NCBI RefSeq assembly: GCF_001184025.1
Contig: NZ_BBYG01000012.1
Span: 186,001 to 250,000 of the forward strand
Length of the DNA stretch: 64,000 nucleotides
Direction: 5' to 3'
DNA from: Streptomyces maremycinicus
Lineage (GTDB): Bacteria > Actinomycetota > Actinomycetes > Streptomycetales > Streptomycetaceae
Shown: piece after piece, positions 20,129 through 62,753 of the stretch
Numbering within the stretch: the stretch's first letter is position 1
How the letters are laid out: the number at the start of each line of letters is the position of its first letter
Notes under the pieces: generated by a model
Databases searched by the model: none
What the model was told of the DNA's origin: nothing
The model's input: only the letters and a program-made list of their open reading frames with translations
Translations under genes and position numbers: made by a program

Positions 20129-20169
20129 CCGCCTTACGGACTCCCGGCCGGGGCCCCGCTACGCGCAAC

Positions 20170-20208
20170 GGACGGTCCGAGCCTCCCCCCTCGTGGCTCG
20201 GACCGTCC
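20170..20208 (+). terminator. Terminator hairpin after the PLP lyase gene
   Basis: Perfect 14-bp stem GGACGGTCCGAGCC ... GGCTCGGACCGTCC with an 11-base loop. Confidence 0.7.
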
Positions 20209-20287
20209 TCGGTTCCACATGCGAAGAACCGCGCGAACAAGGCTAGTTGACTCTGTGTCAGTGTCCAATCACAGTAGCGACAGAGAC

Positions 20288-20305
20288 CTATCGACATATT
20301 TATAG
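20288..20305. promoter_or_regulatory. Candidate LysR-type operator
   Basis: CTAT-N10-ATAG dyad in an AT-rich pocket about 50 bases upstream of the LysR-type start. It fits the T-N11-A style of LysR-type operators. Weak evidence. Confidence 0.35.
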
Positions 20306-30994: not shown

Positions 30995-32473
30995 TCAGGT
31001 CTGCGCCATGTCCACGAAGCGGGAGTAGTGGCCCTGGAAGGCGACGGTGATCGTGGCCGTAGGGCCGTTACGGTGCTTGCCCACGATGATGTCCGCCTCG
31101 CCCGCGCGCGGGGACTCCTTCTCGTAGGCGTCCTCACGGTGCAGCAGGATGACCATGTCCGCGTCCTGCTCGATGGAGCCGGACTCACGCAGGTCGGACA
31201 CCATCGGCTTCTTGTCGGTGCGCTGTTCGGGACCACGGTTGAGCTGCGAGAGCGCGATCACCGGGACCTCCAGCTCCTTGGCCAGCAGCTTGAGGTTACG
31301 GGACATGTCCGAGACCTCCTGCTGACGGCTTTCGGAGCGTTTGGACCCACCGGCCTGCATCAGCTGGAGATAGTCGATGATCACGAGCTTGATGTCGTTG
31401 CGCTGCTTCAGCCGGCGGCACTTGGCCCGGATCTCCATCATCGACAGGTTCGGGGAGTCGTCGATGTACAGCGGTGCGGAGGACACCTCGGGCATCCGGC
31501 GCGCCAGACGCGTCCAGTCCTCGTCCGTCATGGTGCCGGAACGCATGTGGTGCAGGGCGACCCGGGCTTCGGCGGAGAGAAGGCGCATCGCGATCTCGTT
31601 GCGCCCCATTTCCAGGGAGAAGATGACGCTGGGCAGGTTGTGTTTGATCGACGCCGCGCGCGCGAAGTCCAGCGCGAGCGTCGACTTGCCCATGGCGGGA
31701 CGCGCCGCGATGACGATCATCTGGCCGGGGTGCAGGCCGTTGGTGAGCGAGTCGAGGTCCGTGAATCCGGTGGGCACACCCGTCATCTCGCCGCTGCGCG
31801 AGCCGATCGCCTCGATCTCGTCGAGGGCACCCTCCATGATGTCGCCGAGCGGCAGGTAGTCCTCACTGGTGCGCTGCTCGGTGACCGCGTAGATCTCGGC
31901 CTGGGCGCGGTTGACGATCTCGTCGACGTCGTCGTCGCCCGCGTATCCCATCTGCGTGATGCGGGTGCCGGCCTCCACCAGGCGGCGCAGCACGGCGCGT
32001 TCGTGGACGATCTCCGCGTAGTACTCGGCGTTGGCGGCCGTCGGCACCGTCTGGACGAGGGTGTGCAGATAGGACGCCCCGCCGACCTTGTTGATCTCAC
32101 CGCGTTTGGTGAGCTCGGCGGCGATCGTGATGGGGTCGGCCGGCTCGCCCTTGGCGTAGACGTCCAGGATCGCCTGGTAGATCGTCTCGTGCGCGGGCTT
32201 GTAGAAGTCGTGGCCCTTGAGGACCTCGACCACGTCGGCGATGGCGTCCTTGGACAGCAGCATGCCGCCGAGGACCGACTGCTCGGCGTCCAGGTCCTGC
32301 GGCGGTACCCGCTCGAAGGCGGTGCCACCGCCTTCCCACTCGCCGCTGTCCCGACCGCGGTCGTGCTGTTCGTCACGACCGCGCCCTCCTTCGCCGCGCC
32401 GCCGGGCCGGAGGCAGACGATCACTGGGCCCGCTGTCGGCCCACGGGTCGTCCAAGGGCTCGGAAATGCTCAC
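30995..32473 (-). CDS. dnaB: Replicative DNA helicase DnaB
   Basis: 492-residue hexameric helicase that unwinds DNA at the replication fork. The N-terminal domain begins at FERVPPQDLDAEQSVLGGML (after a disordered charged stretch of about 55 residues). The C-terminal RecA-like domain has Walker A ARPAMGKSTLA, Walker B LVIIDYLQLMQ, and the downstream SQLNRG and DLRESGSIEQDAD motifs. GTG 32473 follows GGAGGAGG; length agrees with other Streptomyces DnaB (about 490). No intein interrupts it. Its promoter region contains DnaA-box-like 9-mers. Confidence 0.96.
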   Translation of the reverse strand: MSISEPLDDPWADSGPSDRLPPARRRGEGGRGRDEQHDRGRDSGEWEGGGTAFERVPPQDLDAEQSVLGGMLLSKDAIADVVEVLKGHDFYKPAHETIYQAILDVYAKGEPADPITIAAELTKRGEINKVGGASYLHTLVQTVPTAANAEYYAEIVHERAVLRRLVEAGTRITQMGYAGDDDVDEIVNRAQAEIYAVTEQRTSEDYLPLGDIMEGALDEIEAIGSRSGEMTGVPTGFTDLDSLTNGLHPGQMIVIAARPAMGKSTLALDFARAASIKHNLPSVIFSLEMGRNEIAMRLLSAEARVALHHMRSGTMTDEDWTRLARRMPEVSSAPLYIDDSPNLSMMEIRAKCRRLKQRNDIKLVIIDYLQLMQAGGSKRSESRQQEVSDMSRNLKLLAKELEVPVIALSQLNRGPEQRTDKKPMVSDLRESGSIEQDADMVILLHREDAYEKESPRAGEADIIVGKHRNGPTATITVAFQGHYSRFVDMAQT

Positions 32474-32654
32474 CGAGCAGCCTCCTCCCGTCCGCCGAGC
32501 GGACCTCGCCATGCCTTCTTTCTACGGCACGGCACTGACAATCGAGAGCGCCAACTCCGGTTGTGGCGCGTCGGTTTTATGAGGGTTTCCTCGGCCGACG
32601 GACGGAGCGGGCGCCGGACCACGGTAGGCCCGTCTGCACCGTCAGCCAATCTGG

Positions 32655-32743
32655 TTATCCACAGGCCATGTGGACGACGGCCCCGATGCTGTGGAGAACT
32701 CCGCGAAACCTGTGCACGACCCGGTGGACAGCGCTGTGAACAA
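32655..32743. promoter_or_regulatory. Cluster of DnaA-box-like sequences upstream of dnaB
   Basis: TTATCCACA at 32655-32663 is the canonical DnaA box. TGTGGACGA (32669), TGTGGAGAA (32690) and TGTGAACAA (32735) are each one mismatch from the reverse complement of the Streptomyces box TTGTCCACA. Weaker two-mismatch versions occur at 32711 and 32723. Read directly from sequence; binding is inferred. Confidence 0.7.
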
Positions 32744-32908
32744 GCCCTCGACTTTTCTTACGGAGCGTCGCTGACCTGCACTTTCCCCATCCACCGGCTG
32801 TGCAGAAGAAAAAGTTGCCCGGTCGGGCCAAGATCTCTTCGAACGGCGCGCGAGAGGATACGCGACAAGAGAAGCAGTAAGGGTCACATGCGCACTGGAT
32901 CTCTTACC

Positions 32909-32917
32909 TGTGGACGA
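32909..32917. promoter_or_regulatory. Single DnaA-box-like 9-mer at the MATE promoter
   Basis: TGTGGACGA, one mismatch to the DnaA box (reverse), directly followed by TAGATT (32919-32924), a possible -10 element for a leaderless MATE transcript starting near 32932. Binding there would overlap the promoter. Confidence 0.5.
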
Positions 32918-32931
32918 TTAGATTGGTGGTC

Positions 32932-34269
32932 ATGACACAGGCACCCGCGCCCCCCGAGGCCGCCCGTCGGCGGCACGATCGAGAGATCGTCGCACTGGCC
33001 GTCCCGGCCTTCGGCGCGCTCGTCGCCGAGCCGCTGTTCGTCATGGCCGACAGCGCGATCGTCGGCCATCTCGGCACCGCCCAACTGGCCGGACTCGGCA
33101 TCGCCTCCGCTCTTCTGACGACAGCCGTCAGCGTCTTCGTCTTCCTCGCCTACGCCACCACCGCCGCCGTAGCGCGCCGCGTGGGCGCCGGTGATCTGCC
33201 GGCAGCCATCCGCCAGGGGATGGACGGCATCTGGCTGGCACTGCTCCTCGGCGCCGCCGTGATCGCGGCCACCCTGCCCACCGCTCCGGCACTCGTCGAA
33301 CTCTTCGGAGCCTCGGACACCGCCGCGCCCTACGCGACCACCTATCTGCGCGTCTCGGCGCTCGGTATCCCGGCCATGCTCGTCGTGCTGGCCGCGACCG
33401 GTGTGCTGCGTGGCCTCCAGGACACAAGGACTCCGCTCTATGTCGCCGTCGCGGGCTTCGTCGCCAACGCCGCTTTGAACGTCGTCCTCGTCTACGGCGC
33501 GGGCCTCGGGATCGCAGGCTCCGCCTGGGGCACCGTGATCGCCCAGTGGGGCATGGCCGTCGTCTACCTCGCCGTGGTGGTCCGTGGAGCCCGGCGCCAT
33601 GGCGCGTCGCTGCGCCCTGATGCCGCCGGCATCAGGGCCTCCGCCCAGGCCGGGGTTCCCCTGCTGGTCCGCACGCTCTCGCTGCGGGCCATTCTGATGA
33701 TCGCCACCGCCGTCGCCGCCCGCCTCGGGGACGACGACATCGCCGCGCATCAGATCGCTCTGGGCTTGTGGAGCCTGCTGGCCTTCGCTCTCGACGCCAT
33801 CGCGATAGCCGGGCAGGCCATCATCGGACGGTATCTCGGTGCGGACGACGCTCAGGGCGCCCGTGACGTCTGCCGCCGCATGGTCCAGTGGGGCATCGCC
33901 GTGGGTGCCGTGCTCGGGCTGCTGGTCGTGATCGCCCGCCCGCTGTTCCTGCCGCTCTTCACCGGCGACCCCGCGGTGAAGGAAGCCGCGCTGCCCGCTC
34001 TTCTCGTGGTGGCGCTCTCCCAGCCCGTCTGCGGCATCGTCTTCGTACTGGACGGTGTGCTGATGGGCGCGGGCGACGGCCCCTATCTCGCTTGGGCGAT
34101 GGTTCTCACCCTGGCGGTCTTCGCTCCGGTGGCCCTGCTGGTGCCGGTTCTCGGCGGCGGACTGACCGCCGTATGGGGAGCGATGACCCTGATGATGGCG
34201 GTCCGCATGCTGACCCTGTGGCTACGGGCCCGCTCCGGTCGCTGGATCATCACCGGCGCCAGCCGCTGA
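32932..34269 (+). CDS. MATE-family multidrug exporter
   Basis: 445 residues with about 12 membrane helices. MATE motifs are ALAVPAFGALVAEPLFVMADSA, VGHLGTAQLAGLGIAS, TGVLRGLQDTRTPLYVAV (conserved) and LDGVLMGAGD. Likely Na+ or H+ coupled export of cationic compounds. The ATG at 32932 lacks a Shine-Dalgarno and has a close -10-like hexamer, so translation may be leaderless. The stop is immediately followed by the 52-bp parS palindrome. Confidence 0.93.
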   Translation: MTQAPAPPEAARRRHDREIVALAVPAFGALVAEPLFVMADSAIVGHLGTAQLAGLGIASALLTTAVSVFVFLAYATTAAVARRVGAGDLPAAIRQGMDGIWLALLLGAAVIAATLPTAPALVELFGASDTAAPYATTYLRVSALGIPAMLVVLAATGVLRGLQDTRTPLYVAVAGFVANAALNVVLVYGAGLGIAGSAWGTVIAQWGMAVVYLAVVVRGARRHGASLRPDAAGIRASAQAGVPLLVRTLSLRAILMIATAVAARLGDDDIAAHQIALGLWSLLAFALDAIAIAGQAIIGRYLGADDAQGARDVCRRMVQWGIAVGAVLGLLVVIARPLFLPLFTGDPAVKEAALPALLVVALSQPVCGIVFVLDGVLMGAGDGPYLAWAMVLTLAVFAPVALLVPVLGGGLTAVWGAMTLMMAVRMLTLWLRARSGRWIITGASR

Positions 34270-62726: not shown

Positions 62727-62735
62727 TGTGGAGAA
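62727..62735. promoter_or_regulatory. DnaA-box-like 9-mer upstream of parA
   Basis: TGTGGAGAA, one mismatch to TTGTCCACA (reverse). Confidence 0.55.
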
Positions 62736-62744
62736 ATCCACCTC

Positions 62745-62753
62745 TGTGGACAA
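62745..62753. promoter_or_regulatory. Perfect Streptomyces DnaA box upstream of parA
   Basis: TGTGGACAA, the exact reverse complement of TTGTCCACA, 54 bases upstream of the parA ATG. Confidence 0.75.

Follow-up and report, generated by a model that had tools for sequence, protein, structure and literature searches.

Results

Genes and DnaA boxes between dnaB and the MATE gene

The window, by which we mean the whole 64-kb stretch of DNA analysed, contains dnaB, the gene for the replicative DNA helicase, and a divergent gene for a MATE family efflux transporter, with rplI, ssb and rpsF located beyond the latter (Table 1). The two genes are separated by a gap of 458 bp (32474–32931), with dnaB transcribed leftwards and the MATE gene rightwards. 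We counted as a DnaA box any sequence with at most one mismatch from TTGTCCACA, described as the high-affinity DnaA box of S. coelicolor (PMC4285127), or from TTATCCACA. The initial annotation had reported five boxes in this gap and all five positions stand, including the perfect TTATCCACA at 32655; its description of the other four as one mismatch away from that sequence holds only for the box at 32690, those at 32669, 32735 and 32909 being one mismatch from TTGTCCACA instead. Likewise, the cluster does lie upstream of dnaB, given the likely GTG start, and it is indeed more than 30 kb from the origin, as oriC occupies the dnaA–dnaN interval, approximately 36–37 kb away and beyond the limits of the window. 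The last box adjoins a −10-like element of the MATE gene, as had also been noticed from the sequence; if this element (TAGATT, 32919–32924) is used, the MATE mRNA would be nearly leaderless.

Table 1. Features of the dnaB–MATE region, in window coordinates
Feature	Position	Strand	Basis or remark
dnaB, replicative DNA helicase	30995..32473	-	Pfam DnaB and DnaB_C, TIGR00665 above cut-off; sequence
Likely dnaB start, GTG	32473-32471	-	GGAGG site ahead of it
Predicted -10 of dnaB promoter, TACCGT	32621..32626	-	36-locus alignment
Predicted -35 of dnaB promoter, TTGGCT	32644..32649	-	36-locus alignment
Proximal DnaA box, TTATCCACA	32655..32663	+	closest to predicted dnaB promoter, centre ~-45
DnaA box, TCGTCCACA	32669..32677	-	
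DnaA box, TTCTCCACA	32690..32698	-	spacing maintained in many relatives
DnaA box, TTGTTCACA	32735..32743	-	TTGTCCACA in many streptomycete relatives
Weak DnaA-box-like sequence, TTCTGCACA	32799..32807	-	inside conserved alignment block
Distal DnaA box, TCGTCCACA	32909..32917	-	TCCACA core conserved in alignment; directly before MATE -10-like element
MATE -10-like element, TAGATT	32919..32924	+	sequence; block largely conserved
MATE family efflux transporter, divergent neighbour	32932..34269	+	Pfam MatE, TIGR00797 above cut-off; ATG at 32932

Other sequence elements accompany the boxes. An inverted repeat, GTAA...TTAC (32877–32907), lies ahead of the MATE gene, is conserved in the streptomycete alignment and can be seen by eye in Streptosporangiaceae-type loci; it is a possible operator of another regulator. 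A GCAGGTCAG block lies between boxes at 32771–32779, and the motif GCAGGTCA occurs in 33 of the 39 streptomycete-type loci compared and in 29 of 122 other loci. CAGGTCA is present once in oriC and once in the cluster near crgA described below. When recurrent 8-mers were sought, with masking, in the 122 loci other than the streptomycete-type ones, most of the words obtained resembled DnaA boxes, some resembled −10 regions shared by related loci, and a few could not be assigned. At the gathering threshold, Rfam yielded a single match in the window, the Scr3920 Streptomyces RNA (20167–20292, minus strand), and none within the dnaB–MATE gap. Elsewhere in the window, two further DnaA boxes (TTCTCCACA and TTGTCCACA) are found at 62727–62753, inside the 5′ part of a listed parA-like ORF.

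Box density compared with chance

The cluster is genuine and denser than chance would produce. The gap 32474–32931 holds five boxes, compared with a mean of 0.096 and a maximum of 2 in 5000 dinucleotide shuffles. In the whole window, TTATCCACA alone with one mismatch allowed gives 5 matches, a number also reached in 5 of 100 shuffles; this count being weak, the signal is one of clustering. The same is true on the scale of the genome (8.72 Mb), where YYVTCCACA occurs 600 times and the backward-pattern control 620 times, such that a genome-wide excess is absent. Four YYVTCCACA within the 263-bp stretch of the cluster have a Poisson probability of ~4e-9 for one window chosen beforehand. Along 224 kb of the contig (C12), six stretches reach at least three boxes per 300 bp: two in oriC, the dnaB gap, and those starting at 164437, 175921 and 275217.

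Conservation of the cluster upstream of dnaB

We compared 161 loci, comprising the window, 80 named contigs found by way of DnaB and 80 genomes of the class taken from 148 searched; a further 40 genomes out of 197 searched represent other classes of the phylum, and both sets of genomes were picked by hand for diversity and for a match to the DnaB N-terminus. The 80 named loci were taken without a check of class, three of them being uncultured or MAG contigs without a genus, and the genus and family of class genomes outside the named set are our own guesses. Overlapping palindromic boxes were at first counted twice and then recounted as merged, which changed only the figures for which this is stated. 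One contig (L045) carries the label Saccharothrix sp. ST-888, possibly in error, and its dnaB region is of the Streptomycetaceae type; on account of this layout the locus was counted with the streptomycetes. In many dnaB genes of the class, the query aligns as two segments within a single long open frame, and the break lies close to query residues 261–270, as expected of inteins.

Within 800 bp upstream of dnaB, at least three boxes per 300 bp are present in 130 of the 161 loci (71 of the 80 named, 58 of the 80 class genomes, and the window), the remaining 31 falling below this number. All 38 named streptomycete-type loci and 33 of the other 42 named loci are among the 130. The flanking DNA of 160 of these same loci reaches this density in one case, or in none (0/160) when overlapping palindromic boxes are merged. 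Expressed as density, the 800 bp upstream of dnaB contain 5.57 boxes per kb in the named loci and 4.36 in the class genomes, compared with 0.12–0.13 per kb elsewhere in the same loci and 0.11–0.12 per kb for permuted-motif controls. Besides Streptomycetaceae, 27 families are represented by our assignments; three boxes are reached by some member in 18 of them and two boxes in 23, and the four members of the family that we take to include the mycobacteria (f3) scored 4, 0, 2 and 3.

Across the loci compared, the cluster goes with dnaB whether the MATE gene is present or absent. At least three boxes in 800 bp are found in 69 of 79 loci with a divergent MATE gene and in 63 of 82 without one there; with streptomycete-type loci excluded, these become 31 of 41 and 62 of 81. 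The position of rplI varies as well, its distance ranging between 0.2 and 9.6 kb among the 135 loci in which it could be located. In the other classes of the phylum, a density of at least three boxes per 300 bp is reached by 3 of 40 loci (one of the first 20, plus L260 and L262). Here, where the rplI–dnaB gap exceeds 190 bp (a limit chosen after the first data, and with two loci left unclassed), at least two boxes occur in 7 of 22 loci and fewer than two in 15 of 22; where the gap is shorter, at least two occur in 0 of 16.

Geometry of the predicted dnaB promoter

Thirty-six of the 39 streptomycete-type loci were aligned, three (L040–L042) having been removed by hand because their DnaB match lacked the N-terminus. 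In all 36 the proximal box is unchanged, reading TGTGGATAA on the dnaB strand, and in all 36 a TTGG begins 14 bp after the start of the box. The predicted −10 lies at offset 37 from the box and reads TACCGT or TACGGT in 33 of the 36 loci and TAACGT or TAGCGT in the other three.

We then counted the promoter motif TTG-N3-N16-18-TANNNT after any box. The distance from box start to predicted −35 is 14 bp (38 cases) or 15 bp (one case) in all 39 streptomycete-type loci, and it lies between 13 and 16 bp in 38 of the 122 other loci, with 5 more pairs at 17 bp. The naive expectation is 0.2–0.3 pairs per distance, and the mean over distances of 21–80 bp is 1.3 and 1.6, raised because the cluster’s other boxes face the same promoter. 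The reverse direction gave no pairs at distances of 9–20 bp and 20 loci from other classes gave one pair only, at 9 bp; these are weak controls, as only 28, 6, 7 and 3 promoter motifs occur in them. In the 82 loci with a box 12–17 bp before the motif, 356 boxes (including one adjacent box per locus that is present by selection) lie upstream of the −35, 2 lie over the promoter core and 4 lie downstream.

In bacterial promoters generally, sites placed upstream of the core like these boxes are typical of activation and not of blocking. At the other end of the gap, the distal box immediately precedes the TAGATT of the MATE gene, which is a blocking position. A scan for the sigma-70 consensus found neither a dnaB nor a MATE promoter, and the promoter claim therefore rests on comparison; in most HrdB promoters the −35 is reported to be lacking or poorly conserved, and dnaB (SCO3911) is listed in the modelled HrdB regulon of S. 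coelicolor (PMC6344877). Cytosine methylation has been reported upstream of SCO3911, with higher dnaB transcription after treatment with a demethylating agent (PMC10148868).

Other box clusters near oriC

Across oriC from dnaB, a cluster at 275217–275426 of the contig (L005:5217–5426) is flanked by crgA and a rhomboid gene, whose 3′ ends face it. We searched 36 genomes for this arrangement, of which 23 had a neighbouring-gene anchor and 20 of those 23 were examined, the 13 without an anchor being left out. At least three boxes per 300 bp are present in 13 of the 20 and at least two in 18 of the 20; outside Streptomyces, the corresponding figures are 9 of 16 and 14 of 16. The boxes lie within ~0.3 kb beyond the matched 3′ end of crgA in 19 of the 20 regions, and a convergent rhomboid match, not always adjacent, is found in 18 of the 20. 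Rv0011c is crgA, and the crgA cluster is therefore probably the counterpart of the mycobacterial Rv0010c–Rv0011c site.

A further cluster, at 164437–164749 of the contig (L002:18437–18749), lies between pheA and a serS-like frame recognised by eye, and contains the genome’s only TTATCCACA-N0-30-TTATCCACA. Two samples were used here: 20 of 36 genomes with a pheA match, and a second, overlapping set of 20. Downstream of pheA, all 4 Streptomyces genomes have at least three boxes and none of the 16 others does. In 20-kb regions around pheA from 20 non-Streptomyces genomes, 2 reach three boxes, or 1 once overlapping boxes are merged; this one (L249, from the family f3) has its three boxes ~6 kb upstream of pheA, and these could, but need not, represent the Rv3843c site. 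The pheA-side cluster, being confined to Streptomyces in our sample, was rejected as a class-wide element. A last, small group, three boxes at 175921–175974 (L003:9921–9974), lies just before an ORF that by eye resembles a KptA-type RNA 2′-phosphotransferase.

Discussion

The comparison of loci leads us to regard the cluster as probably the control region of a DnaA-controlled promoter of dnaB, most likely one that is activated. Under this reading, DnaA would bind first at the strong TTATCCACA, which stops ~5 bp short of the predicted −35, and come to occupy several of the boxes, and the resulting assembly would contact or stabilise RNA polymerase and so raise dnaB transcription. The distal box before the MATE −10-like element could let the same assembly hinder the MATE gene. 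Active DnaA would in this way determine how much helicase is on hand for DnaA to load at oriC, and the recurrence of the layout suggests that DnaA helps to set the supply of a helicase that DnaA itself needs. For this strain, we infer DnaA binding, the promoter, the sign of activation and the effect on the MATE gene. Several results count against the reading: the sigma-70 scan gave no promoter, 31 of 161 loci fall below three boxes per 300 bp, the members of family f3 score unevenly (4, 0, 2 and 3), the strict geometry is limited to 38 of 122 loci outside the streptomycetes, and boxes are sparse outside the class (3 of 40 loci at that density). If the reading is true, the amount of helicase available for loading would be governed by the replication initiator itself, in a class to which both antibiotic producers and mycobacteria belong, and helicase supply would be coupled to initiation. 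The positions at which mutations could be made in laboratory strains follow from the conserved layout.

The alternative that deserves most consideration is that titration or inactivation of DnaA, in the manner of datA, is the main function of the cluster, and that its position beside dnaB is incidental. In keeping with such a role, dnaB lies 21–143 kb from dnaA in 30 of 47 genomes (those with both on one contig, the contig end not crossed and dnaB placed), the cluster beside the crgA 3′ end shows conservation too (three or more boxes in 13 of 20), and citing papers credit the S. coelicolor clusters near oriC with holding back initiation at the wrong time (PMC4585315, PMC5742627). However, with dnaA–dnaB distances of this range, nearness to oriC cannot separate titration from regulation, and against titration as the main role stand a box-to-promoter distance that is fixed in 39 of 39 streptomycete-type loci (with respect to a predicted promoter), the concentration of boxes upstream of the promoter core, and the finding that outside the class at least two boxes occur only with an rplI–dnaB gap of more than 190 bp (7 of 22 versus 0 of 16, by a limit set post hoc). 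The crgA cluster also bears on the opposite argument: it is conserved, and an effect on its neighbouring genes was not seen in the mycobacterial dnaA mutants described in PMC7738170, so conservation alone is no proof of promoter control. On balance we consider titration unlikely as the main role of the cluster, and it may nonetheless coexist with control of the dnaB promoter.

The remaining explanations are much less probable. A cluster whose primary target is the MATE gene would fit the conservation of the distal box core beside the MATE −10-like element in streptomycetes, but the 82 loci with no MATE gene in this position still average 3.85 boxes in 800 bp; because the cluster persists there, MATE cannot be the main reason for it, and we reject MATE as the main target, leaving this reading very improbable. 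Slightly less credible still is a second or ancestral replication origin: a looser scan gives a density of 10 per 300 bp, near the 11 of oriC, yet at the one-mismatch level there are 5 boxes compared with 8 plus 5 at oriC, and it is oriC that has the usual dnaA–dnaN setting. Chance or base composition has the least to recommend it and is virtually eliminated, for the absent genome-wide motif excess and the unremarkable whole-window count of TTATCCACA are outweighed by the shuffles and the conservation, on which grounds a chance origin was rejected. Control of dnaB by DnaA remains the reading that we prefer. The initial annotation had offered coordination of dnaB expression with initiation as one of two options, the other being titration, and it is the former that has been strengthened by comparison: the cluster follows dnaB with or without MATE, the distance from box to predicted −35 is fixed in streptomycete-type loci and recurs in 38 of 122 others, and DnaA binding upstream of dnaB has an effect on expression in mycobacteria (PMC7738170).

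It is informative to examine the clusters on either side of oriC together. We tentatively entertain, with rather less than even confidence, an ancestral actinomycete layout in which one cluster at dnaB couples helicase supply to DnaA and another, at the 3′ end of crgA, serves either to sequester DnaA or to recharge it; the Rv0010c–Rv0011c site of mycobacteria would then correspond to this second cluster. If the Streptomyces and mycobacterial clusters do match, two literatures are joined and the function of the crgA-side site becomes testable in a genus that is harmless.

Within Streptomyces, three clusters near oriC of S. coelicolor, named H69, H24 and D78 after cosmids, were reportedly described by Smulczyk-Krawczyszyn in 2006, and the genome studied here likewise has dense boxes near its oriC. 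Going by cosmid content, the crgA, dnaB–MATE and pheA clusters would be H69, H24 and D78; the S. coelicolor counterpart of the dnaB–MATE cluster is, on these cosmid names, probably H24. In contrast to the three clusters of S. coelicolor, this genome has one more, the small group at 175921. The 2006 paper is cited for a datA-like repression of initiation (PMC4585315, PMC5742627, PMC10950094), and this interpretation by the citing papers differs from the control of the dnaB promoter proposed here. The datA and DARS sites of E. coli, as cited in PMC4585315, resemble the present cluster in being DnaA-box clusters outside oriC. Repression of dnaB may be considered beside activation, since both are reported for DnaA at the E. 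coli nrdAB genes (PMC8203912).

The separate parts of the picture are already known, and neither class-wide conservation at dnaB nor a fixed promoter geometry was found in the literature searched, which was covered by title and the start of the abstract and included few subscription papers. A close parallel is mycobacterial. Five regions of M. tuberculosis DNA are bound by DnaA in vitro (oriC, rpmH–dnaA, Rv0057 upstream of dnaB, Rv0010c–Rv0011c and Rv3843c–RVnc0040), homologous regions are bound in M. smegmatis by ChIP-seq, and a DnaA variant with weaker binding upstream of dnaB under-expresses dnaB (PMC7738170). The Rv0057/dnaB site and the present cluster are alike in placing DnaA boxes or a DnaA-binding region upstream of dnaB, bound in the mycobacteria and predicted here. 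They differ in that family f3 loci have fewer boxes, and the portion of PMC7738170 covered here compares the site only with Caulobacter and gives no promoter geometry; its authors cite Caulobacter for dnaB and describe Rv0010c–Rv0011c and Rv3843c–RVnc0040 as lacking an obvious correspondence. In Caulobacter itself, the DnaA regulon includes dnaB with predicted boxes (Hottes 2005, as cited in PMC8203912), such that predicted DnaA boxes lie upstream of dnaB there as they do here, although Caulobacter belongs to another phylum.
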